From positions 1 through 64,000 of the forward strand of contig VCJN01002880.1 in the NCBI GenBank assembly GCA_006384855.1: DNA of 64,000 bases, given 5' to 3'. The stretch's first letter is position 1; every line of letters starts with the position of its first letter. A model generated the notes under the pieces. It was given only the letters and a program-made list of their open reading frames with translations, ran no database searches and was not told the DNA's origin. The position numbers were made by a program, and so were the translations under genes. Origin of the DNA: Tetraselmis striata. Taxonomy: Eukaryota > Chlorophyta > Chlorodendrophyceae > Chlorodendrales > Chlorodendraceae. Shown here in pieces: positions 1-49,531 of this stretch.

Positions 1-13
1 ACGTGGGTGTTGT

Positions 14-500
14 GTGTTAGTCCGGTCGCCGTACCGGGCGCGGGCAGTCGGCGCGCCCCACCCATGTTGGACCTGTGTCCGGGTGGGGGGAGGTTGCAGT
101 GGCTCCGCGGCCACTATATTTATCTCGGCCTATTTGCCCACCGGCTCACAAGGGGAACCGTTTCGGGACCGCGAAGAGTTGGCGCGGCTTCGTACGAGTT
201 ATCCGAGGGATATGATCGTGGTGGGGGGGGATTGGAACATGGATGAAACGGAGTTGACGGCTCTACTCAGGCGTTGGCGGTGCCTTCCCGGCGGTAAGCC
301 CATGTGGCCGCGGGATGCATCGGCGCGCGAACGGGGTACTTGTCAGAGGGGCAGCTGCCGCGTTCTCGACCACTTCATCGCATAGCCTCCCACCATAGGC
401 CCTCCCCCCCCTCTTTCGCCCTCGGCATGGGTGGACTACTCTTGGGACACCTCTGATCACTTCCCTGTCCTGTCTTCTTTCCCCGTGGGCGCCATCCGTG
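14..500 (+). pseudogene. LINE endonuclease domain (APE-type), 3' part, frameshifted
   Basis: This encodes the C-terminal half of an exonuclease-endonuclease-phosphatase domain, the enzyme that nicks target DNA to prime reverse transcription in LINEs. The conserved stretch GGDWN is at about 226-240 in the first frame. The terminal SDHFPV motif appears only after a frame change, at about 456-475, so the domain is split between two frames. The missing N-terminal half is visible in copy 2 (44494 onward). Confidence 0.75.
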
Positions 501-1377
501 AGGATACCTGCCCACCTCCCCTGCATGACCGCCTGTCTGCAAGGTCCATTCCCAAACCGGCCCACGGTGACTCTCCCTCTGAATGGCCCAAGCCGTTCCA
601 CGATTTTGTCACCGCTAATCCGTTCGCGGTGCTCACCCCTCTAGATGACCCACCTGTAGACGGCGGGCCCTCGGGAGGGGGGGGATCCCTAGACATCGGC
701 CCCGACCACTTTATCCAGGCAATATGGTCGGCGGCGCGTGGGGTAGGGGCTGTTACCAAGCCCAGGCGTCGTGGCCTAGGGCCGCCGCTGCAATGGTCTA
801 TCCTAGGTGCGATTAATCGTCGGCGCATGGCCTTTATGGCGTGCCGGGGGACTAGGGGCCCTCGGGATGCCGCTCTAGCGTCGGCGCATTATGCTGCTGC
901 ACGGCATAGGGTCCGGACACTAGTACGTAATAACCGCCGCCGCCAGAGGGAGCGGGCCGTGCTAAAAGCGGTTCAGGATTTTAAGGAGGGTGGTGGGAGA
1001 CGGGAGTTCTGGAAGTGGGCGCACTCTCTCCGTAAGGGGCAGGGTTCATTCGAGGGCGAGGGTTCATTCATGCGAGGGTTCATTCCGGCCAGTACGCGAT
1101 CCGGTATTGGGGGTACTTCATACCGAGCCGGGCGAAATCAATGCGTGCTGGGCGCGGCACTATCGGGAGCTGCTGCGTGACCCCCACCCCCTAGCACAAC
1201 GGGTTGCGATATACCGTGCGGCGTGGGAACACCGCCACGGTACATCGCCACCCATTGCCCCCGCACTAAACGGGATTAACGGGCCTATAACCTGGGAGGA
1301 ACTAGTCAAGGCTCTTAGGCGTTTAAAAAAATAATCAGGCCCAGGGGCAGGATGGGATCACTGCGGAGGCTTTAAAA

Positions 1378-3186
1378 TTGGCGATGTACGCCACAAATAG
1401 CCATTTTGGCAAGGCATTGCTGGCCTTAATTAACGGGATATGGACTAAGAACTACATCCCCCAGCAGTGGCGTAGCTCGGCCATAGTATCGGTGCCAAAG
1501 AAAGGCGACGCGGCCGTTATGGACATTTATAGGGGTATTTCGATTATGGGTGCCGCTATGAAACTCCTTATGACCGTCATTACCCAACGCTTGAAAGACG
1601 TCTGCCAAGCTAAAGGGATCATCCGCCGTTGGCAAGCGGGTTTTATGCGGAATGAGGAGGGCCCCATGCAAGTCGCCAGCTTCTTCGATATCGCGGCTCG
1701 TCGCCAAGCGGCACGTTTACCCACGTACGCGGGTTTTATTGACTTTAGGAAGGCATATGACACCGTACCTCATGAGCTTTTATTCCTAAAACTACAAGTC
1801 ATAGGAGTTACGGGTCATATGCTTGCCTTCATTAAAACTTTATACATGGATAGTATGGCACGGGTCAAGACAGGGGTGGCCCCGGGAACATTATCAGAAC
1901 CCATACCCATAGAGCGTGGCCTCCGACAGGGATGCCCCGCTTCCCCCATCCTATTTAACATATTTATTAACGATATATTCGATGGGGTAGAACATCTAGG
2001 GTGTGATGTACCAGGGTGCACCGACACACTAGCGGCAAGGCAACCACTAAGGGTGCCAGGTCAGTTATACGCGGACGACGCAGTAGGTATCACATGCTCG
2101 TTCGATACCCTGCATGCCATGTTCGCCCACTTCTCGCAGTGGGCGGAGGACCATTTTATGGGGTTTGGGGTACTTAAGTGTGGGGTGATGGCATTAGGCC
2201 GATTTTCCGATGAGACCGCGTTACGCGAACAAGCTGCCCGATGGCAGCTTGGTGGGGAACGGGTACCGGTAGTTGTAAATGAATATAGGTACTTGGGTAC
2301 GGTCATTAAGTCGGATTTAGGTATGCAACACATAGTAGACGACCGGGTTAAGAAGGGTAAACACGCCATTGAGGCGCTCGATTCGGTACTAGTCTGTGGA
2401 CGGGACATAATTCCTATTAATGTGCGTGTGTCGGTCTTTAAAACCTGTGTACTGCCGGTTTTAACTTATGGGTGTGAAGTATGGGGCATGGATAGAACTA
2501 GCGGCGCAAATAAATTACAAACCGTACTCAATCAGTGCTTGCGGTGCCTCATTGGGGTGGGTAAAAGCTCCCCTGGGGTGGCCATTGCACCGATGATGCG
2601 GGAATTGGATATTGCGCCCATAGAGGCTACGGCCGCTGCGGCACGGGCTCGGGCGTTCCTTGAAGCATCCGACTTGAATACATGTATAACCCAGGTAGTA
2701 GATCAGCCAAGTCGGGCGCGCCCTAACACGTGGACGCCAGGGACTGTGCGGTGGTTGGATCGACTAGCTAGGGCGAACGTAGGGCTAGCTGAGGGGGCGC
2801 ACCTTCCACTTGAGTGGAGGTCACTAGCCGCGCGCGATGCCGCTACACTAGTAAACGCATCGGTGTGGGCGCGTTACGAATCATCGGCATCGTTAGCACG
2901 CAATAAGACATGGGGTATATATGTCCAGGCGTCTTATGCGTCAAACCCGTTGCCACAGTACGGTGTGGGTGTCCCCGCGGGGGTTGTGGCCGGGTTGCAC
3001 ATCATGATACAATTACGCACCCGAGTATTTCCCACTGCCCGCCGATTGGCCCGGATTCATGCCATGCCTGAGCGGTTCCTGGAACACTGCTCTGCATGTG
3101 GCGGAGGTGCTGAATCTGAGACTATCGAACATATGTTGGTGGAGTGCCCGCGGTGGGGGTATCACCGTCATAATTTGGGTTGTTAG
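1378..3186 (+). CDS. LINE reverse transcriptase, long open frame
   Basis: This 602-residue open frame covers most of a non-LTR RT. Visible landmarks are the fingers region with YRGIS, the palm motif FIDFRKAYDTVP carrying the first catalytic Asp, GLRQGCPASP, and the catalytic box YADD. The C-terminal knuckle has CSACGG followed by EH and C. RT motif 0 lies upstream in another frame (about 1290-1375), where copy 2 reads KNNKAQGQADG, so a frameshift in an A-run near 1330 removes it. Copy 2 reads through the stop at 3186 into the frame at 3180-3455. Copy 1 has one T fewer there, so its own C-terminal extension is lost. The protein is probably non-functional. Confidence 0.85.
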   Translation: MAMYATNSHFGKALLALINGIWTKNYIPQQWRSSAIVSVPKKGDAAVMDIYRGISIMGAAMKLLMTVITQRLKDVCQAKGIIRRWQAGFMRNEEGPMQVASFFDIAARRQAARLPTYAGFIDFRKAYDTVPHELLFLKLQVIGVTGHMLAFIKTLYMDSMARVKTGVAPGTLSEPIPIERGLRQGCPASPILFNIFINDIFDGVEHLGCDVPGCTDTLAARQPLRVPGQLYADDAVGITCSFDTLHAMFAHFSQWAEDHFMGFGVLKCGVMALGRFSDETALREQAARWQLGGERVPVVVNEYRYLGTVIKSDLGMQHIVDDRVKKGKHAIEALDSVLVCGRDIIPINVRVSVFKTCVLPVLTYGCEVWGMDRTSGANKLQTVLNQCLRCLIGVGKSSPGVAIAPMMRELDIAPIEATAAAARARAFLEASDLNTCITQVVDQPSRARPNTWTPGTVRWLDRLARANVGLAEGAHLPLEWRSLAARDAATLVNASVWARYESSASLARNKTWGIYVQASYASNPLPQYGVGVPAGVVAGLHIMIQLRTRVFPTARRLARIHAMPERFLEHCSACGGGAESETIEHMLVECPRWGYHRHNLGC

Positions 3187-3455
3187 TTCCGGAGTTCAGG
3201 GATTTTATTAGTAGTCAGGTTTTTGTGTTAACACCTGAGGACTTAACTGCCTTCATTTTGGGCGGGGTCCCCCCCTCCCTTCACGGCGCCCTGGATTTTA
3301 CTGGGAATGGGACATTTTTCCAGCTATGGCGTCGGGCCCTCCCTCACATTGCCTTTTTTGTTGCACATGTATCGCACTCCCGAAATGCTTTGCTCCGCGG
3401 GTTGGGGCTTGCCCCAACTCGCATTACTCGAATGGGCCGACGCCCAAACGGGTAG
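3180..3455 (+). pseudogene. C-terminal extension of the LINE ORF2, out of frame
   Basis: The 91 residues here continue the RT protein of copy 2 without a break (there to 48132) and end with the same residues, RMGRRPNG. In copy 1 a one-base deletion near 3176 puts this segment out of frame. No domain is recognised in it. Confidence 0.7.
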
Positions 3456-3684
3456 GGCGGACTTTTCGTGGTCAGTGCCGGGTATTTTGATGGCAGTGTT
3501 TTAGACGGTGATCCAACAGTGTTAGAAATTCTGTCACTGGCGTTCAATTAGTCTTGCAGAATGCTTCGGCAATTTGCTTGATGACTATAACAGAGCGTCG
3601 CCTACCCAGGGATTTCCGTAACTGGATTGCTGCCCAAACCGCCGTCGTAGAGACGCTGCAAGGGTTTCACTGGTACCAGTCCTG

Positions 3685-8592: not shown

Positions 8593-8778
8593 TGATCTAA
8601 ACTAGTTTATGGGGTTTCCATCCTTGACCTAACCGCTTTTCAGCTACAAGTGCTGCGCAGTGGTACGGGAACTAGTAACTGTTGTTGCGCCCTTGTTGGG
8701 TGCAGCACGAGTAGACATAAAAGCAGCCAGAACAGCTGAGCCTGCCATCTTCCAGTTTTCGCTGCGTTCCACGCAGCG
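8593..8778 (+). repeat. A1 repeat of YR copy A
   Basis: This 186-bp direct repeat begins tgatctaaactag and ends ttccacgcagcg, a small palindrome. It matches 11504-11689 except at two positions. Confidence 0.9.
8712..8726 (+). promoter_or_regulatory. TATA-like motif inside the A repeat
   Basis: The motif acataaaagc is conserved in A repeats of all copies. It becomes atataaaagc in copy C A2 and in the relic at 48389-48553. It lies about 170 bp upstream of the ORF1 start, so it could be the element promoter. This is inference from motif and position only. Confidence 0.35.
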
Positions 8779-8891
8779 ATGTAAAAACTGTCTCGTAACC
8801 CGTTGCGAGCAAGGTCACCCCAGGTTGTTCAAGACCACACCCGGCTCGCCACCCGAGTGTGATATTCTCGTCCGTACGTCCGTGCGTTACT

Positions 8892-9767
8892 ATGTCCGAT
8901 GGAGAAGAACCCGTCGCTGAGCCGACGTTGCAGTCGCTGAACGCAGATATGAGGGCCCAGTCTTCATTACTGCGAGAGCTGGCTACAGCTGTGGCACAAT
9001 TGACGGCTCGTGATCGCGTTGTTGATGGAGAGGGGGCACATGGCTCCGGCTCAGGGCAGCGCTTCGCGAGACAGCCGACAGGCAGCGGGGGAGCCGCAGA
9101 GCGCCCCGACTTGCTAGAGCTAGCCCAGAGCGGCCGTGTCGGAGCAAAATCCGTGAGTGCCGAGGATGATTACCTCGCGGTGCCAGAGCTACTGCAGAGA
9201 GCAGAGTCTGGTTACGAGGCCGTTCGACCGGTCAGCCGAGTGCCTGGACTTTTCCCTTTGAGCACCGACCTAACGAACGAGTACCTCAAGCAGGATGACC
9301 GGCGTCTGCCGGCCCAGGAGGAGTACTTGTGGATGTCGTGTTTCGGGGCCCACATGGCCGCCCTTTTCGTGGCGCTCGACGAGCTACTGCCCTACGTCCC
9401 TTCCAACAACCAAGACTTCACCCCCTACCTCGCGAGAGCCCGGAACCACGCCGAGGCCATCGACAAGGCGTTTCGGTTTCGTTTGGCCTTCCTACGGAGG
9501 CTAAATGAGATCAAGCGTGTGCACGGTGACCAAGGTGTTCTGGATGTGCTGCGAGCCCAGCATTTTCAGCCTGCTTCGGAGCATCTGGGTTCCGCGATCT
9601 TTGGGGACCTCATGCGGGACTACGAGCGCCGTGTCTTCGAGGCGACCGTTGCCAGCAGCGCCAAGGCGACCGCTACTTCTCGAGTGGCGGCTGCAGCTGC
9701 AGGTCGCGGACGTGGGCGAGGACGTGGCGGCGGACGTGGACGTGGCCGCGAAGGTGAGCACGAGTGA
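8892..9767 (+). CDS. Gag-like ORF1 of YR copy A
   Basis: This intact frame of 291 residues starts at the ATG giving MSDGEEP. The N-terminus is acidic and Gly/Ser-rich. A helical core follows (from about residue 85, with DLTNEYLKQDD and YLARARNHAEAID). The C-terminus is an RGRGRGRGG tract ending in EGEHE. A basic RG tail suits nucleic-acid binding, as in capsid-type ORF1 products of DIRS elements, but sequence homology to Gag is not shown. The protein is conserved in copies B (one nonsense codon) and C (frameshifts), and in fragment D. The recombinase frame starts 37 bases downstream. Of the three copies, only this ORF1 is intact. Confidence 0.75.
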   Translation: MSDGEEPVAEPTLQSLNADMRAQSSLLRELATAVAQLTARDRVVDGEGAHGSGSGQRFARQPTGSGGAAERPDLLELAQSGRVGAKSVSAEDDYLAVPELLQRAESGYEAVRPVSRVPGLFPLSTDLTNEYLKQDDRRLPAQEEYLWMSCFGAHMAALFVALDELLPYVPSNNQDFTPYLARARNHAEAIDKAFRFRLAFLRRLNEIKRVHGDQGVLDVLRAQHFQPASEHLGSAIFGDLMRDYERRVFEATVASSAKATATSRVAAAAAGRGRGRGRGGGRGRGREGEHE

Positions 9768-9803
9768 CGGTGTGGGGCGCCGTTCGTCGGAGCTGCATGA
9801 GCC

Positions 9804-11424
9804 TTGCGAGGCCACCTTTCGGTGACCGCCGCAAGACGCACCCTTGCAGCTCAACGGCGGGATGAGCGCCCTGTGTCAGGACCTGACCCCCCCACCTTAC
9901 AGACTTCATTTAGACCTTCCTCGGTGCGGCGCTTCTTACAGCTACAGCCGAGTGCGGCTCAACCATCCGCACACCTGCACATGGCGGCTCAACCATCCGC
10001 CTTTCTTACAACCCCATCTCTGCGTTCGTCGGTTGTTACACTACGAGTTACAACCGGTTCGCAACGACCAAGTTTCGCGCGTGTACGTTACGCACGGGAC
10101 AGGCGCTATGAGCGCGAAGGGCGCGCGGGGCGGCCCTCCTACCTGAACCTAGCCCCGCAAACCCGTACTGGAGCTACTGCAAACCCGTCCAGCAACTACC
10201 GGCCAACCGCCGGGAACCTAACCGCTGCTGCCGAGTACTTTGCACACAGTAGCCGTGCCGGTGGCACTCTGTCAGTAAAACGACGCACTTACGTAATCGA
10301 CGAGCCCGCAGCTATCGCTCCGTGGGCTGCGTCACTGCGATCCCGACTACAGGACGCGTTCGGCTCAGACGAGCTAGGCCAGCGGACGCTCGACCTGCTC
10401 TCCAGCTCCCTCAGCGCTCAGACCCTCAAGAGCTACGCCGGCAGGTTGGCTCAGTTTGCTGAGTTCTGCCACGACTCCGAGAACATCAGCCCGCTAGAGG
10501 CGACTACTGCTACTGTTGTTCGGTACGTTGCCTGGATCGGAGAGCGAGGGCATATCGCAGCTAAGTCGCTGCAGCCCTATCTGTCTGCCATCAACACCTT
10601 CTTCGAGCTGCACAACCTCGTCCCGATCGCCAAGGACAGCCTACACCTCACTTCGGCAAGACGTGGGTTAATGTTACGTCAGCGTCGACTGGACGCTGCC
10701 CCTTTGCGTGTCCCTCTGCCTGCGGATGTAGCTTACCGCTTCGTCTCAAAGGCCGAGCTAATTGTGTCTGCTCCTTACCCAGAGTCCCACCTCGACTATC
10801 GAGCCCTCTTGGCCTCGGTTGTCAACTTCCTGTTCTTTGCCAAGGGCCTTACTGGCGTCTCCTGTCGAGTGCAAGATGTGCATGTCGACACCTACAACAT
10901 CACCTTGCAGATCTACCGCGAGAAGGGTCGCGCCGGCCGGCGGGGACCTGACGACCTGCGCGTACTTCTCCTTCCACTGTCCGAGCACCCTCGAGTGGCA
11001 CGTCTCTTGCGCTACTTCATCGACAACGTCCAGTCTGTCCCCCTGGTTACTGTTGGCTACCTCCAACTTCTGGGCTGTCAATGTGGCTGAGCAGTCGAAA
11101 CCTTGGACTGCGGCTACGATGTCAGACTGGTTGTCTACATCAGTCAACCTAGTCAACGTTGCCCCCCCTGCTGGCACTTCCTGGACCTCACACAGTCTAC
11201 GCAAGGGCGCAGCCTCTGCAGCAAACGCCATTGGAGCGCCACTGTCCCACATCCGCTACCAGGGCGGTTGGGCCACTAACTCTGATGTCGTTCTGGACTA
11301 CATCGACCCCAACGTTCTTCCTTCTCCTGGCGCGTGGTTCTTCTTTGGACACATCGCCCCCCTCCGCCACTTCCAAGTCCAACAGGACTCCGCAGCGGTG
11401 GCCTTCCCAGTGCCTCCTTCATGA
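9804..11424 (+). pseudogene. Tyrosine recombinase of YR copy A, one frameshift
   Basis: The first frame runs to 11090 and the C-terminal catalytic part continues to 11424 in another frame. Comparison with copy B shows five bases missing near 11055. The first ATG in frame is at 9981. A core-binding helical region (about 10310-10700) precedes the catalytic part. That part has a beta-strand Lys in YREKGRAGRR, the HxxR box HSLRKG, a conserved GGW, and the nucleophile Tyr in DYIDP. The first catalytic Arg (box I) is not evident: the expected position reads GLTGVS. In life this enzyme would integrate a circular DNA copy. Here it is broken close to the active site. Confidence 0.85.
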
Positions 11425-11477
11425 CTTGGCGCTACCCCTTCTCCGTCAATCCACCGCTCTCTCCGTTCGCTCAAGAC

Positions 11478-11503
11478 TGGCAAAACCAGACTCAACTTTG
11501 AAA
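11478..11503 (+). repeat. B1 repeat of YR copy A
   Basis: The 26 bases tggcaaaaccagactcaact plus ttgaaa recur exactly at 11783-11808 (B2). B1 directly abuts A2. Confidence 0.85.
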
Positions 11504-11689
11504 TGATCTAAACTAGTTTATGGGGTTTCCATCCTTGACCTAACCGCTTTTCAGCTACAAGTGCTGCGCAGTGGTACGGGAACTAGTAACTGTTGTTGCG
11601 CCCTTGTTGGGTGCAGCACGAGTAGACATAAAAGCAGCCAGAATTGCTGAGCCTGCCATCTTCCAGTTTTCGCTGCGTTCCACGCAGCG
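11504..11689 (+). repeat. A2 repeat of YR copy A
   Basis: Second copy of the 186-bp A repeat, followed by a C-run and a 93-bp spacer before B2. Confidence 0.9.
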
Positions 11690-11782
11690 CCCCCCCTGAC
11701 TCCGTTTTCCCTCCACGCTTTTCGCTAAACCTTCCTGCCAATTTCGGCTCTTGACCGTGTAAAACAGCCTGCGCGACCTTTT

Positions 11783-11808
11783 TGGCAAAACCAGACTCAA
11801 CTTTGAAA
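11783..11808 (+). repeat. B2 repeat, right end of YR copy A
   Basis: Exact second copy of B1. Copies B and C end with the same sequence and then diverge, which fixes the right boundary of the element. Confidence 0.85.
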
Positions 11809-22325: not shown

Positions 22326-22748
22326 TGTAATTCTTGGCCTTCGCTTGTTCCGACCGGATCGCGCGTTGAAGATGTAGGGACACTGCTACCAGGACGAACA
22401 CTCTGTCCCGAAGCAGGCGCAGTAGGAGTTCCAGCGCTGGGGCCGACCTTATTTCCAGGGTACAGGGTACATTTTTGAGTCAAAACGGTCCAATTTCTGG
22501 ACTCGAAAATGTGCCCCCCACGTGATCGCTTAGGCTTGGATATGTACCCATTTTTCGGTCACATTTCAGGTGCAATGCAACACTATACGAGAGTACTAAG
22601 AATGGCACATCGGCGTGTCCTCTTCGCGCCCTCAGTCGCGTAAAGTACTATCCGCGTCACCTTGGAAGGTTGCGGACGCGAGGGCGTAGCGAATGGCGTT
22701 TAAAACCTGGAAATCGAGCCTCACTCGCGCAGAGAAGACGCCCCGGGC

Positions 22749-23666: not shown

Positions 23667-23727
23667 CCTTTCAGTATAAGGATGATTTATATGACAAAAA
23701 GGGGATTTAATTGCCCATATGCTTTAC

Positions 23728-24600: not shown

Positions 24601-24854
24601 CTGAATCACCAACATGCCCCAGCCGCCGCGCTTGGCGCCGCGCTGCGCCGGTCGCCGCGCCTTGGCGCCCCGCTGCCCCGGCCGCGCTAGCAAAGGAAGT
24701 GCGGTTTGTGAAATCGACAGACAGGAGTCGATTCAACTCTTATCTGCGGTCGAAAATGATCTGTTATGATCATTGATTATGATTAATGAGGTATTTCCGA
24801 GGGAGCTATGGCAGCGAAGTTCAAGCTGCATGAATCCCCTGTCACGGTCCATAC

Positions 24855-26130: not shown

Positions 26131-26141
26131 GTCACATCTCG

Positions 26142-26205
26142 CCCCCCCCCCCCCCCTTGACGGCAGTGAGTGGCGCGAGCAATTGAGAAAGATGATGAGG
26201 AGCAG

Positions 26206-26236
<31 letters not shown>
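26142..26236 (+). repeat. Poly(C) tracts C15 and C31
   Basis: C runs occupy 26142-26156 and 26206-26236. They are the source of the Gly-rich minus-strand translations here. Confidence 0.95.
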
Positions 26237-26237
<1 letters not shown>

Positions 26238-26286
26238 CCACGCCGTCGACATGGGCAGGATTCGAGCCGCAGTCCGGGTCTGCCAT

Positions 26287-27258: not shown

Positions 27259-27375
27259 TTTCAAGTTGAGTCTGGTTTTGCCAAAAAGGTCGCGCAGGCT
27301 GTTTTACACGGTCAAGAGCCGAAATTGGCAGGATGGTTTAGCGAAAGCGTGGAGGGAAAACGGAGTCAGGGGGGG

Positions 27376-27562
27376 CGCTGCGTGGAACGCAGCGAAAACT
27401 GGAAGATGGCAGGCTCAGATGTTATGGCTGCTTTTATGTCTACTCGTGCTGCACCCAAAAAGGGCGCAACGACAGGTGCCTAGTTCCCGTACCACAGAGC
27501 AGCACTTGTAGCTGAAAAGCGGTTAGGTCAAGGGAGGAAACCCCATAAACTAGTTTAGATCA
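27376..27562 (-). repeat. A2 repeat of YR copy B
   Basis: 187-bp repeat, near-identical to 30274-30460, bounded by the B1 joint at 27563. Confidence 0.9.
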
Positions 27563-27640
27563 TTTCAATTTGAGTCTGGTTTTGCCAGTCATGAGCGAAC
27601 GGAGAGAGCGGTGGATTGACGGAGAAGGGGTAGCGCCAGG

Positions 27641-29225
27641 TCATGAAGGAGGCACCGGGAAGGCCACCGCTACGGAGTCCTGTTGGACTTGGAAGTGGCG
27701 GAGGGGGGCGATGTGGCCAAAGAAGAACCATGCGCCAGGTGAAGGAAGAACGTTGGGGTCGATGTAGTCCAGAACGACGTCGGAGTTAGTGGCCAGCCGC
27801 CTTGGTAGCGAATGTGGGACAATGGTACTCCGATGGCGTTGGCCGCAGACGCTGCTCCCTTGCGAAGGCTGGGTGAGGTCCAGGAAGTGCCGGCGGGAGG
27901 GGCAGCACCGACAAGACGGACGGCTGTAGCCAGACAGTCCGACATTGTAGCGGCAGTCCAAGGTTTTGACTGCTCGCTTGGGGTGACCGCCCAGAAGTTT
28001 GTTTCAGCCAAGGCAACAGTAACCAGGGAGATAGACTGTATTGTGTCGATGAAGTGGTGCAGGAGACGTGCACCTCGGGGGTGCTCGGCCAACGGAAGGA
28101 GAAGTACGCGCAGGTCGTCGCGTCCCCGTCGGCCAGCGCGGCCTTTCTCGCGGTACACCTGCAGGGTGATGTTGTAATCGTCGACATGCACATCTCGCAC
28201 TCGGCAGGAGACGCTAGTAAGTCCTCTGGTAAAGAACATGAAGTTGACAACCGAGGCCACGAGGGCTCGGAAGTCGTGTTGGTACTCTGGGGTGGGAGCA
28301 GACACAATCAGCTCGGCCTTTGTGACGAAGCGGTAAGCTACATCAGCAGGCAGAGGAACTCGCAAAGGGGCGGCTTCCATACGTCGCTGCCGCAACATCA
28401 GCCCACGCCTAGCTGCAGTAAGCTGTAGGCCGTCCTTGGCGATTGGGTCGAGGTTGTGCAGCTCGAAAAACGTGTTGATTGCAGACATGTAGGGTTGCTG
28501 TGACTTAGCTCCAATGTGCCCTCGCTCACCAATCCAGGCAACGTACCGGACGACAGTAGCAGTGGTCGCCTCCAGTGGGCTGATGTTCTCGGAGTCGTGA
28601 CAAAACTCCGCGAACTGAGACAGTCTACCGGCGTAGCTCTTGAACATCTGAGCGGCGAGGGAGCTGGAGAGCAGGTCGAGTGTCCGTTTTCCAAGCTCGT
28701 CCGAGCCGAAAGCGTCATGCAGTCGAGCTCGCAGTGAAGCAGCCCAAGGGGCGACAACTTCGGGCTCGTCAATTACGTAAGTGCGTCGTTTTACCGACAG
28801 AGTTCCAGGAGGGCGACTACTGTTTGCAAAGTACTCGGCAGCATCGGTTAGATTCCCGGCGGCTGGCCGGTAGTTGCTGGACGGGTTTGCCGTAGCACCA
28901 GTACGGGTTTGCGGGGCTAGGTTCAGGTAGGAGGGCCGCCCCGCGCGCCCATCGCGCTCGTAGCGCCTGTCATGCGCGTAACGTACACGCGCGAAGCTTG
29001 GTCGTTGTGAAGCAGTTGTGACACGCAGTGTAACAACCGACGGACGCGGCGATGGAATGGTACGGGAGGCGGTTGGTTGAGCCGCCATGTGCAAGTGTGC
29101 GGATGGTTGAGCCGCACTCGGTTGTAGCTATAAGAAGCGCCGTACCGAGGAAGGTCTAAATGAAGTCTGTAAGGTGGGGGGGTCAGGTCCTGACACAGGG
29201 CGCTCATCCCGCCGTTGAGCTGCAA
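27641..29225 (-). pseudogene. Tyrosine recombinase of YR copy B, frameshift before the catalytic Tyr
   Basis: The frame is open from above 29094 to 27670 and includes the core-binding region, YREKGRAGRRG and the HxxR-like PSLRKG (here His is Pro) with SHIRYQGGW. Just after GGW one G is missing compared with copy A. The Tyr-bearing end DYIDP (to 27641) therefore lies in another frame. Copy C carries the same one-base deletion. The box I Arg position reads GLTSVS. Confidence 0.85.
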
Positions 29226-29305
29226 GGGTGCGTTTTGCGGCGGTCACCGAAAGGTGGCCTGGCTCGCAAAGCTCCAGCAGCTCCGACGAAAGGCGCCCCA
29301 CACCG

Positions 29306-30160
29306 TCACTCGTGCTCACCTTCGCGGCCACGCCCGCGTCCACCGCCACGCCCTCGTCCACGTCCGCGACCTGCAGCTGCTGCCGCCACCCGAGCAGTAG
29401 CGGTTGCTTTGGCGCTGTTGGCCACAGTCGCCTCGAAGACGCGACGCTCGTAGTCCCTCATGAGGTCCCCGAAAATCGCGGAACCCAGATGCTCAGAAGC
29501 AGGCTGAAAGTGCTGAGCTCGCAGCACGTCCAGAATACTTTGGTCACCGTGTACACGCTTGACCTCATTAAGCCTCCGTAGGAAGGCCAAACGAAAACGA
29601 AACGCCTTGTCGATGGCTTCGGCGTGGTTCCGAGCTCTCGCGAGGTAGGGGGTGAAGTCCTGATTTGTAGTAGGGACGTAAGGCAGCAACTCATCGAGAG
29701 CCACGAAAAGTGCAGCCATGTGGGCGCCGAAACACGACATCCATAGATACTCCTCCTAGGCCGGCAGACGCCGGTCATCCTGCTTGAGGTACTCGTTCGT
29801 TAGGTCGGTGCTCAGGGGGAAGAGCCCAGGCACCCTGCTGACCGGTCGAACGGCCTCGTAACCAGACCCTGCTCTCTGCAATAGCTCTGGCACCGCGAGG
29901 TAGTCATCCTCGTCACTCACGGATTTTGCTCCGACACGGCCGCCTTGGGCTAGCTCTAGCAAGTCGGGGCACTCTGCGGCTCCCCCGCTGCCTGTCGGCC
30001 GTCCCGCGATGCGCTGCCCGGAACCGGAACCATGTGCTCCTTCTCCATCAACAACGCGCTCACGAGCCGTCAATTGGGTCATCGCAGTAGCCAACCCTCG
30101 CAGTTCTGCGTGTAGCGACTCGAGCGTCGGCCCAACGACGGGTTCTTCTCCATCTGGCAT
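29306..30160 (-). pseudogene. Gag-like ORF1 of YR copy B, one nonsense codon
   Basis: The frame starts at ATG 30160 (MPDGEEP) and matches copy A throughout, including the RGRGRGRGG tail. It is interrupted by a single TAG near 29757, where copy A has a CAG codon. It lacks a short segment near the N-terminus relative to copy A. Confidence 0.85.
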
Positions 30161-30273
30161 GGTAACGCATGGGCGTACGGATGAGAATATCATACACGGA
30201 TGGCGAGCCGGGTGTGGTCTTGAACAACCTGGGGTGACCTTGCTCGCAACATGTTACGAGACAGTTTTAATAT

Positions 30274-30460
30274 CGCTGCGTGGAACGCAGCGAAAACTGG
30301 AAGATGGCAGGCTCAGATGTTATGGCTGCTTTTATGTCTACTCGTGCTGCACCCAAAAAGGGCGCAACGACAGGTGTCTAGTTCCCGTACCACTGAGCAG
30401 CACTTGTAGCTGAAAAGCGGTTAGGTCAAGGGAGGAAACCCCATAAACTAGTTTAGATCA
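30274..30460 (-). repeat. A1 repeat, left end of YR copy B
   Basis: The element begins with tgatctaaactag on the minus strand at 30460. The flank is unrelated to those of copies A and C. Confidence 0.9.
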
Positions 30461-33098: not shown

Positions 33099-33479
33099 GG
33101 GAATCTTCGTCGACCCCGACCTGTCAATTTCTAAGCCCAGGTGCACGAGCTTTTGGGTGGGCTCCCAAACGCCCTTCTTGGGGTTGCGCAACAGCCCAAA
33201 CCCCAAGAGGGAGCGTTCGATGTACTCGCGTTGCCAGATGGCCTTAGCCCGAGTCCGAGCTAGAAATTGGAAATCGTCCATGTAGGGCAACATGCCAACT
33301 CGGCGCCACGGGACTAGTGTGCCGTATGCTTCAGTCGGACTACGATGCGATGCCCTAGTGAGGACGTTGGTAAACAGACATGAGAAGTAAATAAAAGTCA
33401 TGACAGTTGGCGCCAACTGCATTCTTAGGTCTGGCGAGTGAAGTACTTTTTTTGTCAAGGGGACAAAGACCAACCCATG

Positions 33480-33747
33480 CTTAGTGCGCAGCGTCCCTAC
33501 CAACCCGCCGTGCGCGGGTCCCGGCGCGAGCCGGGGATCATGGGAAAGAACGTGAAGCACGGAGAGTGGTTGGATACAAAGAAGTGACCAGGCCGCCTGG
33601 GCGCCACACGCATGTAGGCAGTCGTTGCGGTGCCTGGTGTGCGCGCGGAGCTAGTGTGGACCATCAGTGGGGATATGTGCTAAAGTACTGAGGCATACCC
33701 TAGCTACATTGCACATAAGAAGTAGTGTACCAACACTGATGTCAACA
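33480..33747 (-). repeat. 3' LTR of the mini-element
   Basis: About 265 bp. Its minus-strand start follows a polypurine tract at 33748-33757. Its outer end (cttag) differs from the other LTR. Confidence 0.75.
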
Positions 33748-34329
33748 CCCCCCCTCAATGTTGCAAGGGGATGCTCCAAGCAGGGGGTCCGGCTGCCGAC
33801 GCTAGTCGCTAGCCTAGCTAGAGAGGCAGCCCGCCATGCCCTGACCTCGGCGTGGGCCAGGGCTGGCCCTCTAGGGAGTCGGACTGCGCGGCTGCCGAAC
33901 GGACTAAAGTTGTGGCTGACCGCTTCTCCTCGGCGTTGGTGTGCCGAGCTCTGCATAGTTACGGATTTCGTACGGATTTACTGGTGGGCGAGCGTTGCCC
34001 AAAGTTCCCAATCGGCCGAGCTGAGAAACGGGTCGGGCGAGGACTGCACTTGTACGCGCCGGTCGCTGGCGTCGAAGTAGCTGGCGAGCCCGTGCATGGC
34101 GGTCGCTGGCGTCATGGTATATAGCGAGCTTCCGGGTGTGCGCTGTCGGTGAAGGTGCGCGAACCTTGAGGCGTCACTGCGCCGCGAGTGCGACGTATAG
34201 TCGTTGCTAGGGAGTAGAGGACCGGTTACCCACCGCCGGTGATCTCAATTTTACGTCCAGACTCGCGTCGAGACGGACTTCTTGCGTCGTCGTCAGACTA
34301 CCCTCCCTAGTAGAGGGCACATAACGTGA

Positions 34330-34592
34330 AGTGCACAGCGTCCCTACCAGGCAACCCGCCATGCGCGGGTTCCGGCGCGAGCCGGGGACTGTGGGAGCGA
34401 ACGTGAATGAAGCACGGAGAGTGGCTGGTTACCGAGAAGTGGGCGCCGCACGCATGTAGGCAGTTGTTGCGGTGCTTGATGTGCGCGCGGAGCTAGTGCA
34501 GACCATCAATGAGGGTATGTGCTAAAGTACTAAGGCATACCCTAGCTACATTGTGCATATGCAGTAGTATAGTACCAACATTGATGTCAACA
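34330..34592 (-). repeat. 5' LTR of the mini-element
   Basis: About 263 bp and colinear with 33480-33747. No clear tRNA primer-binding site was recognised next to it. Confidence 0.75.
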
Positions 34593-35140
34593 CCATGGGA
34601 AGGCCAACAAGTCGGTACATAGTAGTGCCGCGGCAATCGACCGTGAAAAAGTCCATGTCCTCAGGGGCGATTCAAACCGCGTAAACCCCATCATCCAGGT
34701 CCCTCTGCCGCATGTAATCCAAGGGCGTGTCAAGTTGCGCAATTGCGAAAGCGTCTCACACGAAAGATCTCGGGTCTCACAATAGCGGTTCAGGGAGCGG
34801 AGGTCAATGATGATGAGCCTCCATTTGTTTGTTCCGGGCTTAGGAACCAAGAACAACCGGGACACCCATGCATTTTGCGCAGTAGCCTCGCTTCCATGCC
34901 CCAACGGCCAGGAAGTGAGCCAATTCACCGACCATAAATTGCAGTTGGGCCGGAGTAGCATCCTCCGTTCACACTCTGATGAAAAGAAGGGGGGCAAGCC
35001 CGCCCAAAAACGGAACGGGTACACCTGTAGAGATCCAGGTGAGAACACGGCGATTCGCACTAACGGCTTGCCAGTTGCCGAGATTACGACGGCCGCGATG
35101 TCTCAAAAAGAGGGAGTCGGGGGTACAGGAATCGGTGCGA

Positions 35141-35865
35141 TGGATGTCGCGAAGGGGCGAGCAGAGCGCCATGTCGCTTTGCTGGCCCTCTCCGCGTCGG
35201 CGACAGGACCCACATTGTGCGGCACAGTAGAAGTGCCGCGGCGTGGGAGTATCCATGTATTACTGGGCGTTGGCTTGGCCACTGGCAATGCAGTGTCACT
35301 TTGTACTCGAATCTATACTAGACGACGAGCATGTGCCGGCATGCGCCCCAATCGCATCGCATCTCGGCCCCCACGCCGGATAGGGGCCGGTACGGATCGA
35401 GCCATGCCCACTACACGGGAGAGGCGCATCCATGGGTTATTGTTGGTCGACACTGGTTGAAGGGGTTGGACCTTGTTCCGCTGAGTGGGGAAGCGATGCG
35501 GCTTTGTCCTCTCCTCGCGTTGGGCGTGTAATCAACAGCTCGTTCGCGGGTAGTATTTAGCGCGGCGCAAGCGGCGCGCGTCCATAAACCACACAAACTC
35601 GACCGGGTTTTTCCCAGTAGGGGAGCGGGGAGGGGGAGGGGGCGAATAGCAACGCTCACTGTACATGGTACGATGGCAGAAGACCGGCATCCTGCGCGGC
35701 AAAAATTTGCCGCAACTTTACTGTGGTGGGCTCGATGGAGCGTGCCACTGCAAAGGAGAGTGGACCGGTTGGCATCCGTGGAGGCAGGTGGTGGCCCTAG
35801 CCGGCCCCCATAAACATGAGCGCGCAAACGCACGCTACGGGCGCCGCGCCAGGGCTATCCCGTAA
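35141..35865. other. Region upstream of the DIRS-type RT, no recognised gene
   Basis: It lies between the RT pseudogene and the A-repeat terminus at 35866-35890. By position it should hold the first ORF of that element. The minus-strand frame 35411-35833 is open but not recognisable as the Gag-like ORF1 of the YR copies. Confidence 0.4.
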
Positions 35866-35890
35866 GAGAAACCACATAAACTAGTTTAGA
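35866..35890 (-). repeat. Terminal fragment of an A repeat
   Basis: The sequence aaccacataaactagtttag differs by one base from the A-repeat start of copies A and B on the same strand as the RT. Similarity stops after about 22 bases. Confidence 0.6.
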
Positions 35891-36560
35891 AGAGGTAATA
35901 GATACTTTAGAAGAGGTAAGAGAGTGTTTGCTATTCCTTACAGAAAATAGTTGCTAGTTGTTGGGGAGTCTTCGTCCCTTGTCTACTTAGCACGCGCAGT
36001 ACGGCGCCACCATCAGTATCTCCGTATATCCACGAGGCGTGCCCGTACCGCCCGAGGAGCTGCATCGACCTAGTAGCATCCCCGCATTTTTCATCGTCAG
36101 TAGGAAGCTGCCGTATCACCGCACGTCACCAACCCGCGCGCGGTTGCCGACGCATCCATCCCGGGTAGCGTTGCTCGCGCATATGTTGTTCCGTCGAGTG
36201 CTGAAAAGCACCATGGAGGTTGCTTCTTGTCCATCCTCATCTTTCTTTTTACCATGGGGTCGCGCCGCGACAGAGCTCGTGTCTTCGTGACATGCAGGGT
36301 CTTCTGTGTACAAGCCACTCAGAAGCGAAACGTTGAGCCTAGCTCGAGGACATGTCTCGCTAGCGGTCGAGGACCATCCAAAGGACACCATGCGCAAGCT
36401 CCCCGAGCCAACAATCAGTGTCTCGCAGGGATGAGAGCAGTTAGACTGATTCCGGGGGGGGGGGCACTCTTAACGCTTTGCGGCACAAGAGCCCCCCATG
36501 CCGCCGACCTTTGGTTCGCGCGCGAAAAAGGGCGCCACATCTAGGGCATGAACGATCCAT
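35891..36560. other. Spacer without a supported gene
   Basis: Short overlapping frames on both strands; nothing recognised. Confidence 0.45.
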
Positions 36561-38449: not shown

Positions 38450-40085
38450 AGTGGTGAGGACTCGTGTTGGATCAGTTCCCCCGCCCCGCACCAGAGCGTA
38501 GCCATCACCCGCAACAGTCCCCCCGCCTCGCCCCACAGCGTGGTTGAGCATGCGTGTTGTTGAACCGTCATATGCATGTGCGGATGGTTGAGCCGCACTC
38601 GGTTGTGGTTGTGAGAAGCGCCGCACCGAGGAAGGTCTAAATCAATTCTGTAGGGTTTGGGGGGGGGGGGGGGGGGGGGGGGGGGTCCAGTCCGGACACG
38701 TGACGCACAACCCGTCATTGAGTCGCTAGGATCGGCCGTGCGGCGGTCACCGAAAAGGTGACCTCGCAAAGAGCCGCGAGAAGCTCCGACGAAAGCCCCC
38801 CCACGCCATCACGCGTGCTCACCTTCGCGCCCACGCCCCCGACCGCCGCCGCGTCCGCGTCCTCGCCCGCGACCTACGAGCCTCGCCGCCACTGCTCGTG
38901 TGCCCGCCACAAGAGCAGTTGCGGCGACCTTGGCACCGTCGGCAAATGTCGATCGCCCCAAAGACCCGACGCTCTTAGTCGCGCATTAGGTCGCCAAACA
39001 CCGTAGAGCCCACATGCTCCGCTGGTGGCTGAAAATGCCGAGCCCGCAGCACGTCCAGCACGGGGGGTACCGTGCACACGCTTGATCTCGTTGAGCTTTC
39101 GACGGAAGGCTAGATGAAAACGAAACGCCGCCTTGTCGATGGCCTCAACGTGGTTTCGAGCGCGCGCAAAGTAAGGCGTGAAAAAAAGTCTTGATTAGCA
39201 ACCGGAACGTAGGGTAGCAGCTCGTCGACAGCCACCAAGAGAGCGGTTGTGTGAGCCCCGAAACATGTCATCCCAATGAATTCCTCTTGGGCCGGCAGAC
39301 GCCGATAATCATGCGCTCGAGGTAGTCATTAGTTACGTCGGTACGCCGCGTAGGAAAAAGCCCAAGCACTCGACTGACCGGTCGTCCGAACGTCCTCGTA
39401 TCCATGCTTTGCTCTCTGAAATAGCTGTGGCAACGCGAGGTAGTCGTCCTCGTAATGTCGGATTTTGCTCCGACACGGCCACTCTGGGCTGGCTCTAGCA
39501 AATCGGGGGCGCTGCGGCTCCCCCGGTGCCTGTCTTCCGTCCCACGACGCGCTGCCCAATTCAATAGCCTAGTGCTTCGTCTCCATCGGCACCACGTCCA
39601 TGAGCCGTCAATTGGGCCAACGATGATGGGAGCTCCGGCAGCGTTGTAGGTTGGGTGTTAGCTATACTCTTACCGATAATCGGCTGCCCGATACGAGTAC
39701 AGCGTTGTATAAAGGTACTCGGCTGCCCGTGTACCGGCTACATAGCTACATATGCGGCTGCCCGCGTGTACCCTGTATTTAACATGCTCAGATCTTTTGA
39801 ATTGCTTTCATTGGGCATCATGCATGTCTGCTTGAATAAGCGATTCGAGCATCGGCTCGGCGACGGGGTCGTCTCCATATGGCATGGTGACGCACGGACG
39901 TACCAGTACGGATGATAATTACACACACCTTGCTTCCACCTCGCAACTGTTGTAGTGGACGTTTTCTATTGCCTATTCGGGCGGTTTCCTGATCGCCTTT
40001 TGAAGCTAGCTCATGTAACTACATAATTACACACACGGATGGTGAGCCGGGTGTGGTCTTGAAAGACCTTGCCCGCAACAGGTTA
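38450..40085 (-). mobile_element. YR element fragment D, decayed
   Basis: The minus-strand sequence matches the start of the recombinase region (about 38570-38650) and the whole ORF1 region (38760-39640). Segments such as SRVLGLFP and the RG-rich end are visible through many frameshifts. Part of the 5' leader follows (39880-40080). It is interrupted by G27 (38659-38685), by foreign sequence at about 39640-39850, and by a 94-bp insertion at 39929-40022. It is older than copies A-C. Copy C inserted next to its leader in head-to-head orientation. Confidence 0.75.
39915..40036. repeat. 94-bp insertion flanked by a 14-bp duplication
   Basis: The sequence ataattacacacac occurs at 39915-39928 and 40023-40036. 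The flanking leader of fragment D reads continuously if one copy and the intervening 94 bp are removed. A 14-bp duplication suits a SINE-like insertion. Confidence 0.55.
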
Positions 40086-40385
40086 TGATCTAAACAAGTT
40101 TATGGGGTTTGCTCCCTTGACCTAACCGCTTTTCAGCTACAAGTGCTGCTCAGTGGTACGGGAACTAGGCACCTGTCGTTGCGCCCTTTTTGGCTGCAGC
40201 ACGAGCAGACATAAAAGCAGCCATAACAGTTGAGCATGCCATCTTCCTGTTTTCGCTGCGTTCCACGCAGCGATGTAAAAACTGTCTCGTAACCTGTTGC
40301 GAGCAAGGTCACCCCAGGTTGTTCAAGATCACACCCGGCTCGCCACCCGTGTGTGATATTCTCATCCGTACGTCCGGGCTTTACC

Positions 40386-41259
40386 ATGCCAAATGGAGAA
40401 GAATCGTCGTTGAGCCAACGCTCGAGTCGCTCTACGAAGACGTGAAGGCCCGGTCTACATTACTGCGGAAGCTTGCCACAGCGTTGGCCCAATTGACGGC
40501 TCGTAAGCGCGTTGTTGATGGAGAAGGAGCACATGGTTCCGGTTCCGGGCAGCGCATCGCGGGACAGCCGACAGGCAGCGGGGGAGCCGCAGAGCGCCCC
40601 GACTTGCTAGAGCTAGCCCAAGGCGGCCGTGTCGGAGCAAAATCCGTGAGTGACGAGGATGACTACCTCGCGGTGCCAGAACTACTGCAGAGAGCAGAGT
40701 CTGGTTACGAGGCCGTTGACCGGTCCGCAGGGTGCCCGGGCTCTTCCCCCTGAGCACCGACCTAACGAACGAGTACCTCAAGCAGGATGACCGGCGTCTG
40801 CCGGCCCGGGAGGAGTATCTATGGATGTCGTGTTTCGGCGCCCACATGGCTACACTTTTCGTGGCTCTCGATGAGCTGCTGCCTTATGTCCTTGCTACAA
40901 ATCATGACTTCACTTCCTACCTCGCGAGAGCTCGGAACCACGCCGAAGCCATCGACAAGGCGTTTCGTTTTCGTTTGGCCTTCCTACGGAGGCTTAATGA
41001 GGTCAAGCGTGTACACGGTGACCAACGTGTTCTGGACGTGCTGCGAGCTCAGCACTTTCAGCCTGCTTCTGAGCACATGGGTTCCGCGATAGTCGGGGAC
41101 CTCATGAGGGACTACGAGCGTCGCGTCTTCGAGGCGACTGTGGCCAACAGCGCCAAAGCAACCGCTACTGCTCGGGTGGCGGCAGCAGCTGCAGGTCGCG
41201 GACGTGGACGAGGGCGTGGCGGTGGACGCGGGCGTGGCCGCGAAGGTGAGCACGAATGA
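40386..41259 (+). pseudogene. Gag-like ORF1 of YR copy C, frameshifted
   Basis: The N-terminal ATG (MPNGEE) is out of frame with the rest. A second frame change lies near 40720. The segment 40732-41259 is otherwise close to copy A, to the RGRGRGRGG end. Confidence 0.8.
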
Positions 41260-41295
41260 CGGTGTGGGGCGCCTTTCGTCGGAGCTGCTGGAGCT

Positions 41296-42849
41296 TTGCG
41301 AGGCCACCTTTCGGTGACCGCCGCAAAACGCACCCTTGCAGCTCAACGGCGGGATGAGTGCCGTGTGTCAGGACCCGACCCCCCCCACCTTACAGACTTC
41401 ATTAAGACCTTCCTCGGTACGGCGCTTCTTATAGCTACAGCCGAGTGCGGCTCAACCATCCGCACACTTGCACATGGCGGCTCAACCAACCGCCTCCCGT
41501 ACCATTCCATCGCTGCGTCCGTCGGTTGTTACACTGCGTGTCACAACTGCTTCACAACGACCAAGCTTCGCGCGTGTACGTTACGCGCGTTACATGCGCT
41601 ACGAGCGCGATGGGCGCGCGGGGCGGCCCTCCTACCTGAACCTAGCCCCGCAAACCCGTACTGGTGCTACTGCAAACCCGTCCAGCAACTACCGGCCAGC
41701 CGCCGGGAATCTAACCGCTGATGCCGAGTACTTTGCAAACAGTAGTCGCCCTCCTGGTACTTTGTCGGTAAAAAGACGCACTTACGTAATTGACGAGCCC
41801 GAAGCTGTCGCCCCTTGGGCTGCATCACTGCGATCACGTCTGCAGGATGCTTTTGGCTCATACGAAATAGTTAAAGCGGACGCTCGACCTGCTCTCCAGC
41901 TCCCTCACCGCTCAAACACTCAATAGCTACGCCGGCAGACTGTCTCAGTTCGCGGAGTTTTGCCACGACTCCGAGAACATCAGCCCGATGGAGGCGACCA
42001 CTGCTACTGTCGTCCGGTACGTTGCCTGGATTGGTGAGCGAGGGCACATTGGAGCTAAGTCATAGCAACCCTACCTGTCTGCAATCAACACGTTCTTCGA
42101 GCTGCACAACCTCGACCCAATCGCCAAGGACGGCCTACAGCTTACTGCAGCTAGGCGTGGGCTGATGTTGCGGCAGCGACGTATGGAAGCCGCCCCTTTG
42201 CGAGTTCCTCTGCATGCTGATGTAGCTTACCGCTTCGTCACAAAGGCCGAGTTGATTGTGTCTGCTCCCACCACAGAGTACCAACACGACTTCCGAGCCC
42301 TCGTGGCCTCGGTTGTCAACTTCATGTTCTTTGCGAGGGGATTGTGTGTCTTGCCGAGTGCGAGATGTGCATGTCGACGATTACAACATTACCATGCACG
42401 TGTACCGCGAGAAAGGCCGCGCTGGCCGACGGGGGCCCGACGACATGCGCGTGCTTCTCCTTCCGGTGTCATAACACCTCCGAGTTGCACGTCTCCTGCA
42501 CCACTTCATCGACAACGTACAGTATGCATCGACAACGTACAATCATTCCCCCCCCCCCCTGGTTACTGTTGCCTTGGCTGAAACAAACTTCTGGGCGATC
42601 ACCCCAAGCGAGCTCACCCAGCCTTCGCAAGGGAGCAGCGTCTGCGGCCAACGCCATCGGAGTACCATTGTCCCACATTCGCTACCAAGGCGGCTGGCCA
42701 CTAACTCCGACGTCGTTTTGGACTACATCGACCCCAACGTTCTTCCTTCACCTGGCGCATGGTTCTTCTTTGGCCACATCGCCCCCCTCCGCCACTTCCA
42801 AGTCCAACAGGACTCCGCAACGGTGGCCTTCCCGGTGACTCCTTCATGA
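41296..42849 (+). pseudogene. Tyrosine recombinase of YR copy C, multiply broken
   Basis: Matches to copies A and B are spread over several frames. A TAG stands near 42062 and shifts occur near 41870, 42345 and 42470. The region between the LLLP block and LRKGAASAANAIG, including the HxxR His, is shortened. The Tyr end DYIDP is in the frame ending at 42849. Confidence 0.8.
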
Positions 42850-43209
42850 CCTGGCGCTACCCCTTCTCCGTCAATCCACCGCTCTGTCCGTTCGCTCATC
42901 AATGGCAAAACCAGACTCAACTTTGAAATGTTCTCAACTTGTTTATGGGGTTCCTTCCCTTTCCCTAACCTCTTTTCCGCTACCGTGCTGCTTAGTGGTA
43001 CGGGATACTAGGCACCCGTCGTTTCGCCCTTTTTGGGTGCAGCACGAGTAGACATATAAAAGCAGCCATAACTAATGAGCATGCCATCTTCCACTTTCGC
43101 TGCGTTACACTCAGCAGCGCCCCCCCTGACTCACTTCACGCTTTCACTTAACCCTCCTGCCATTTTCGGCTCTTGTCCGTGTTTGGCAAAACCAGACTCA
43201 ACTTTGGAA

Positions 43210-48132: not shown

Positions 48133-48388
48133 GGCGGACCTTTCGTGGTCAGTGCCGGGTATTTTGATAGCAGTGTTTTAGACGGTGATCCAACAGTGTT
48201 GGAAATTCCGTCATTGGCCTTTAATTAGTCTTGCGAAATGCTTCGGCAATTTGCTTGATGACTATAACGGAGCGTCGCCTACCCAGGGCTTTCCGTCACT
48301 GGATTGCTGCCGCCTAAACGGCCGTCGTAGAGACGCTGCAAGGGTTTCACTGGTGCCAGTCCTGTCCCGGGGGCGGAAAAAAAAAAGA

Positions 48389-48553
48389 CGGCAAGCTCAG
48401 CTGTTGCGGCTGCTTTTATATAATGTCTACTGGCTGCACACGAATAACAACAGTCGCAGCGACGGGTTAACTAGTAACCCGGACCCCACAACAGCACATG
48501 TAGCCGGAAAAGCGGCTGGGAAAGGAGGAAACCCCATTAAACTAGTTTAGATC
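48389..48553 (-). repeat. Diverged solo A repeat of a YR element
   Basis: On the minus strand it begins tgatctaaactagttta and keeps the block order of the A repeat, including tatataaaagcagcc. It is clearly diverged from copies A-C and has a cacacga segment of its own. It joins the LINE poly(A) directly. Confidence 0.75.
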
Positions 48554-49531
48554 ATTACCGCAAACCTCCGCCCGGCACCTACCCTGTACTCGCGCCAGCG
48601 CCGCGGCCGCGCAAACCAGCGCCGCCGAATAACGACTACTGCAGGGAGAAGGCGAGTGAGAGGCAGCAAGGTACTGGTACCATGAAGCCCGTCCGTTCGT
48701 CACTGCCTCGCGAAGCATACCACCGCGTCGCAACGGAGAATAGTCCTTACCAGGTACCCGGGAAGGCTCGGCGCTTGCAAGCGCAATGGGCATTCATCAG
48801 AGTTTGCGAGGTCTCTAGCCCCGCGTGTGTCGGGGCGAGGTGGGCGGTGTGCCTTGAGCGGAGGCGCTTTCTGAAGGGCCAAGTTCATCCTATAGTTTAT
48901 TGTTGGAAGCATGCCGCCTATTCACTCCCGCGCCCAACTCGCACTCCCACTCGCACCCGCACCACTTGCACCACAGGCCGACGCCGATGCCGTTATCGAG
49001 GTCCACGCTCGCGTCCACTGACTGGATAGCGCGGCCCACACAGTACACCTGTCGTTTCAACCCCTCACAGCATCAAAATACGGAGTATTTCCATAACCAG
49101 TAGTTGCTGCAGTACAACGGTGGGATTAGCGGCGCGGCCGTTAGACGGCTTGCAACGGCCCGCCCGCGGCTGGGCGTCGGACCACCCTTCGCCCCTTCGC
49201 CCCCCGCCCCCTCAGTGTGCCCTCGCGTCCCCCCTTTCCCGCCGCTTCGATACCTTGGTCCGCCTAGTCATTATTTGAAGCCAGCATATCGGCTTGATAG
49301 GCTGTTCATATTTCGAACTGGCCGCTATCCTGGAGGCCACCCACATGTGAAGCCCTTCGCGCATGCAGGCCTGCTGGTGCCGACGAGAGCTGAAGCCCCC
49401 CCCCCCCCCCCCTCCCCCCCCACACACAACCCCAACCTCGACCCCCCCCCCTCCCCCCGCGGCCGACTCCTCCGTCCGCTGTGTCTCGCAGCAGGTATTC
49501 GGGCGTGACTCTAAGAATTATTGCCGCCGCC
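48554..49531. other. Upstream region of the small gene, no recognised gene
   Basis: It holds a weak R-family-like hairpin (about 49128-49160) and C runs at 49389-49441. A 5' exon of the following gene could lie here but cannot be placed. Confidence 0.4.

Follow-up and report, generated by a model that had tools for sequence, protein, structure and literature searches.

The first 64,000 nucleotides of contig VCJN01002880.1 of the chlorophyte Tetraselmis striata (forward strand; hereafter the window) raise the question of how an element that encodes a tyrosine recombinase (YR) and no reverse transcriptase (RT) can be propagated. Three copies of such an element, 3.1-3.2 kb long and termed family GY, displayed the layout A1-ORF1-YR-B1-A2-B2, where ORF1 is a first open reading frame (ORF) and A and B are split direct repeats. 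The original prediction had described them as a semi-autonomous line that borrows an RT. Our data suggest that GY is probably one half of a two-component YR retrotransposon, the other half being a second family, designated RT-only, which shares the repeat layout and the B1-A2 joint.

Structure of the GY copies

The three window copies were colinear, with mutual identities of 86-94% over long aligned pieces, and a Pfam scan of the GY ORF1 and YR frames detected neither RT nor RNase H, in agreement with the RT-less architecture first read from the window. Copy 1 (8593..11808, plus strand; 98.6% identity to the comparison copy L068) comprises, all on the plus strand, repeat A1 (8593..8778), ORF1 (8892..9764; 291 aa from the first ATG, with a long N-terminal helix and a C-terminal RGG tail), the ORF1 stop TGA followed by CGG in frame with YR (9765..9770), a candidate for stop-codon readthrough, the YR frame (9768..11421), repeat B1 (11479..11503), repeat A2 (11504..11689), which adjoins B1 to form the joint, and repeat B2 (11784..11808). 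Its YR carries a frameshift near position 11055 and a lysine at the first presumed catalytic position; where intact elsewhere, the frame is 553 aa long. Copies 2 and 3 were likewise decayed, with intact frames present elsewhere in the genome.

Repeat A is 186 bp long, and A1 and A2 differ more in GY copy 3 (84.7% identity) than in copies 1 and 2 (98.9%); repeat B spans 25-27 bp. The element starts with TGATC (first letters TGATCTAAAC) and ends with TTTGAAA (last letters ...CTTTGAAA); at the internal joint, GAAA/TGATC, the last bases of B run directly into the first bases of A. Copy 2 (27259..30460, minus strand; 3,202 bp) sits inside another repeat family; when its flanks were rejoined and compared with a related repeat, the junction showed no duplication, but gaps of 8-9 nt occurred nearby. 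Copy 3 (40086..43209, plus strand) is adjoined at its left end by an older minus-strand GY fragment covering the ORF1 region (38559..40063; about 75% identity).

Distribution of GY in the genome

Eleven complete genomic copies were assembled from overlapping same-contig loci among the 40 best A matches, their A repeats being identical to those of the window. Six were 3,221 bp long and the others 3,222-3,226 bp, with pairwise identities of 97.0-99.9% (55 pairs). A 322-aa ORF1 was open in 9 of the 11 and the 553-aa YR in 8. The end of the B1 probe coincided with the A2 start in 10 copies; the exact B1 probe was unmatched in the eleventh.

In the 224-Mb genome, a pattern search allowing two mismatches returned 1,366 A starts, 1,091 B1-A2 joints, 1,234 YR 3' ends and 1,408 ORF1-YR junctions. 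Spacings were taken from the perfect matches listed on contigs up to C400 (100 of the 1,091 joints, 73 YR ends and 96 junctions), among which 48 of 86 junctions and 7 of 66 YR ends were without a listed partner. The YR 3' end lay 77-81 bp from the joint in 58 of 59 listed pairs, the ORF1-YR junction lay 1,548-1,738 bp from the YR end in 34 of 38, and the same junction lay 1.63-1.82 kb from the joint in 38 of 42; the remaining distances were at least 3.4 kb. Such short spacings leave no room for an RT block in those copies; an RT block in most copies, the outcome that the original prediction had named as contradicting it, was thus not observed among the listed markers.

Head-to-tail GY arrays with a spacing of about 2,916 bp were found on contigs C2249 and C348, as expected from circles or from unequal exchange between A repeats. 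A search of the genome with the PF00589 profile gave seven matches, three in family GY and four on bacterial-looking contigs. On the latter (C1804, C2009 and C396; loci L001-L004), phage-type integrases lie beside bacterial-looking frames, and contamination of the assembly is likely.

Selection on the GY proteins

Ratios of non-synonymous to synonymous substitution (dN/dS), computed against copy L068, were 0.13 and 0.15 for ORF1 of copies 2 and 3, 0.15 for locus L005 and 0.03 for L006. Those of YR were 0.20 for both window copies, 0.22 for L005 and L006 and 0.19 for L007. The synonymous distance was about 0.35 for copies 2 and 3; ORF1 of copy 1, which is nearly identical to the comparison copy, gave 0.09. 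Purifying selection acts on both ORF1 and YR, so recent deletions do not account for GY. Taken with the fixed spacing, these values describe an RT-less form propagating with selected proteins, the decay of single copies coming on top.

The YR protein matched a SAM-like domain above the cut-off (PF02899, E value 2.2e-7) and the integrase domain below it (PF00589, E value 0.0012). The residues R, K, H, R, W and Y, which we take to be catalytic, were kept in 48/54, 54/54, 53/54, 52/54, 28/29 and 25/27 of the matched rows, several of the loci behind these rows stemming from the same copies. A single-sequence AlphaFold2 model of the copy-2 YR had a mean confidence score (pLDDT) of 35, too poor for fold searches. 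ORF1 had no Pfam or NCBIfam match, and its single-sequence AlphaFold2 model was all-helical with very low confidence (pLDDT 44, likewise too poor for fold searches); its RGG tail resembles that of SmD1 (E value 0.003). The capsid-like character first ascribed to ORF1 thus found no support in these searches, and the protein is Gag-like by position only. Scans of IMG/VR with the GY YR, the RT and ORF1 returned no relatives.

The TGA-CGG at the end of ORF1 is in frame with YR, in which methionine first occurs at codon 72. Upstream of this methionine, dN/dS was 0.12 for copy 2 (9 synonymous and 3 non-synonymous changes), 0.26 for copy 3 (9 and 6) and 0.42 for the older fragment (14 and 16). Selection on this segment suggests that YR is probably produced by UGA readthrough from ORF1. 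The folding signal 3' of the ORF1 stop was weak, with z-scores of -2.5 for one stretch and -0.2 for another. A UGA codon followed by CGG is a viral readthrough context. In the Candida element Tca2, a UGA separates gag and pol (PMC2194720).

A second family carrying reverse transcriptase only

A second fixed-length family, of 3,049 bp and roughly 180 copies, displays the same A1-[ORF]-B1-A2-B2 layout, with a 179-bp A1, a 763-aa RT/RNase H frame, a 27-bp B1, A2 and B2. Its three complete copies measured 3,049, 3,049 and 3,040 bp, with frames of 763, 763 and 760 aa and B1 abutting A2 exactly; RT/RNase H was the sole long frame, and neither Gag nor YR was found in them. In one of these copies, Pfam identified RVT_1, RT_RNaseH and a sub-threshold Dam domain (E value 0.0035). 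Identity among the three pairs was 99.3-99.7% and, judging from these values and those of GY, both families look young.

The genome contained 357 RT-only A starts (one mismatch allowed). For 71 RT matches assigned to this group and the first 100 of these A starts, the distance from A to A was 2,683-2,802 bp in 28 of 31 listed pairs within 12 kb. Among 35 RT matches on contigs up to C1320, 19 had A starts at both expected offsets, one had a longer 5' part, eight had an A start on one side only, three had a downstream A at a distance of about 7.25 kb, and four had none among the A starts listed. The 7.25-kb copies were considered as possible full-length elements and rejected: the one read, on C1006, contains another repeat inside its RT frame, and neither YR nor ORF1 could be detected there. 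Copies on C1208 and C819 showed nearly the same spacing, suggesting that this composite may have been copied. The inserted repeat, which is about 5 kb long and rich in tandem arrays (22457-27255, minus strand; L079, 134-5503), also borders GY copy 2 in the window. RT-only copies on C1880, C2021 and C2592 have an identical 8-base left flank and perhaps represent duplicated loci or insertions within a repeat.

A decayed RT-only copy, overlooked in the original prediction, lies in the window itself (33111..35891, minus strand; 85% identity to the RT-only element of locus L076). It is interrupted and its 3' end is missing; A1 (35721-35891) and two RT matches (35435-34531 and 33389-33111) were recognized, all on the minus strand.

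A joint and a flank rule common to both families

Alignment of the B1-A2 joints of GY and RT-only matched 44 of 52 columns, with a score of 34 against a maximum of 14 in 2,000 shuffles, the similar stretch taking in some 25 bp of B and 26 bp of A. In the 5' leader, the A2-B2 spacer and the part of A beyond the joint, similarity between the two families did not exceed that of shuffles. Significant DNA similarity between them was found at the joint only.

The left flanks were also alike. The 41 GY and 60 RT-only sites showed mostly G or A at position -4, rarely C at -3, T or A at -2 and rarely G at -1, and no position differed between the families (p 0.12-0.75). The RT-only flanks are the 60 distinct ones of 63 listed, all with C or G at -8 owing to the search pattern. 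Scored with the GY matrix, RT-only flanks averaged 1.65, GY flanks 2.22 (leaving out each scored site) and background words -4.73 (p 1.5e-23, the 1,640 background words being overlapping and hence non-independent). A common joint together with a common left-flank rule is the trace expected from one recombinase acting on both families. On these sequence grounds, GY resembles the integrating half of a YR retrotransposon with split repeats, and the RT-only family appears to be the best candidate for its copying half. The borrowing of an RT proposed in the original prediction should accordingly be amended: GY is RT-less, its ORF1 and YR are selected and its RT probably acts in trans, but the relation looks reciprocal rather than one-sided, since Gag and YR are both lacking from the RT family whose joint matches that of GY.

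Autonomous-type elements and the origin of the two proposed halves

A search with a DIRS-type RT consensus gave 151 matches, with 150 of 2,728 candidates scored, and three groups were sampled, one of them being the RT-only family. Group 1 (L075) has a zinc-knuckle Gag, an RT/RNase H with a Dam-like stretch, split repeats of its own and a putative YR whose reading frame changes close to the 3' end. Group 3 (L080, 4.2 kb of sequence from within RT onward) has an RT frame related to that of group 1 (E value 2e-97) and a putative YR frame. The two frames, which we assume to be YRs from their motifs, match each other (E value 8e-37) and had no Pfam integrase match. A genome search with RVT_1, in which 150 of 3,001 candidates were scored, gave long frames suggestive of long terminal repeat (LTR) elements.

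The L075 joint scored 9 against GY, a value reached by 186 of 2,000 shuffles, and 7 against RT-only (1,088 of 2,000). No joint was found in the 4.2 kb of L080, where similarity to GY or RT-only DNA was at chance level. The RT-only polyprotein is clearly related to the RTs of group 1 (E value 7e-69) and group 3 (E value 2e-41), but BLASTP matched the GY YR to neither putative YR frame at E values up to 10. The two halves therefore need not share one PAT-like ancestor, and the YR half may come from another source than the RT half.

Points against a two-component system and alternative explanations

Several observations weigh against pairing GY with the RT-only family. That the proteins of one family would act on the other is a proposal read from sequence and counts as such. 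One autonomous-type site (n=1) appears to fit the left-flank rule, which might then apply to the YR elements of this genome generally, and the first base of the right flank differs, being T in 13 of 17 GY sites and C in 3 of 3 RT-only sites. Inverted repeats around the joint were not above shuffles in either family. GY ORF1 and YR are unlike the Gag and YR frames of the autonomous-type elements, and GY exceeds RT-only by about 6-8 to 1. Longer distances between GY markers do occur, for instance 5,010 bp on C225. Higher dN/dS values were obtained for the older fragment (0.31 for ORF1, 0.50 for the YR start), for YR of copy 1 (0.49; 10 synonymous and 13 non-synonymous changes) and for RT-only (0.43, from one decayed copy). 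Finally, the small share of RT candidates scored means that an autonomous helper could have gone unseen.

This last point opens the strongest alternative: a single autonomous element with this joint, either unseen or extinct, would have both GY and RT-only as its non-autonomous satellites, whose genes would be kept only as partial helpers. Autonomous/non-autonomous pairs with common ends are known, one of them with a Gag-donating partner (PMC11302176), and most RT candidates lie beyond the 150 scored. However, of the two autonomous-type groups sampled, at one locus each, one has an unrelated joint and the other none that was found, and their putative YRs are unlike that of GY. Moreover, joints and YR 3' ends are not in excess of ORF1-YR junctions, in contrast to what close RT-bearing copies would produce, a comparison that a diverged parent would escape; and dN/dS values of 0.13-0.20 indicate that the GY proteins have been needed. 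We regard this explanation as unlikely.

It is also conceivable that GY is a Crypton-like circular DNA transposon without need of an RT, the joint common with RT-only being an ancestral relic. An encoded recombinase, the lack of RT and the 2,916-bp tandem arrays would fit such a life cycle, although the arrays fit unequal exchange as well. Cryptons are, however, described as devoid of long direct repeats (PMC3212892), which makes this explanation improbable. An origin of the three window copies by deletion from an RT-bearing element is more improbable still. Loss of an RT block could yield the ORF1-YR order, but the distances were fixed for 34 of 38 and 58 of 59 pairs of listed markers, joint sites number more than 1,000, and selection is seen across subfamilies, without RT where seen. 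The fixed spacing and copy number rule out a recent deletion; an ancient one is conceivable.

Comparison with known systems

PAT-like elements (PAT1, TOC3 and Kangaroo, of order DIRS) have in common with both families the A1-B1A2-B2 split direct repeats, with RT-only the RT/RNase H and a methyltransferase-like domain (the weak Dam match) and with GY the YR; they differ in carrying RT and YR on one element, whereas two elements are involved here (PMC4157794, PMC3266345). With GY lacking RT and RT-only lacking YR, each family misses one defining PAT-like feature. Ngaro elements resemble GY in their A1-[ORFs]-B1A2B2 layout, Gag-like ORF1 and YR as last ORF (PMC8547959), but are described with their own RT/RNase H and without the methyltransferase domain (PMC3266345). 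Cryptons share with GY a YR without RT; they are described as having a YR domain only (PMC4157794), whereas GY has 186-bp A repeats, 25-27-bp B repeats and a selected ORF1. GY therefore falls outside Cryptons as defined by a YR alone and no long direct repeats.

Among paired elements, the wheat LTR families RLG_Cereba and RLG_Quinta likewise have matching ends, one of them donating Gag, but RLG_Cereba is autonomous and encodes all proteins (PMC11302176), whereas neither family has the full set here. VIPER and SIRE combine a YR retrotransposon with a short derivative having common repeats; SIRE, however, is truncated to about 0.43 kb (PMC6681497). A literature search, mostly without subscription papers and based on titles and abstract openings, found no two-component YR retrotransposon.

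Other repeats in the window

Segments 1-3684 and 44691-48364 form a 92.7% identical duplication with RVT_1 frames, and a solo GY-like A repeat fragment (48385..48556, minus strand; 76% identity) lies just beyond the second one. A tandem array of units of about 116 bp, 94-97% alike, occupies positions 59014-59743.

Proposed mechanism and implications

In the two-component system that we propose, GY would supply the Gag-like protein with its RGG tail and the recombinase, the latter probably through UGA readthrough, and the RT-only element would supply RT/RNase H. The RT would act in trans, copying the RNA intermediate of either element, presumably packaged by ORF1. The split repeats would allow the complementary DNA to close into a circle whose junction is B1-A2, and the GY recombinase would join this junction to A/T-rich target DNA, with no duplication of the target. 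A stronger form of this proposal, to which we give an even chance, is an obligate bipartite retrotransposon in which the capsid-like protein and recombinase on one element and the RT on another would be mutually dependent, neither being mobile alone and the two being linked only by the joint of about 50 bp: a two-segment retroelement whose YR and RT are possibly of different origin.

The joint, as the sole similarity found between the two families, offers a clear way of testing which signals in cis are important. In the usual view, Gag, RT and the integration enzyme come from one element and satellites are parasitic. If the proposal is true, a stable split, with about 1,000 copies of one half and selected genes, would mean that the parts of a retroelement can depend on one another and still be maintained together, as in a segmented virus.

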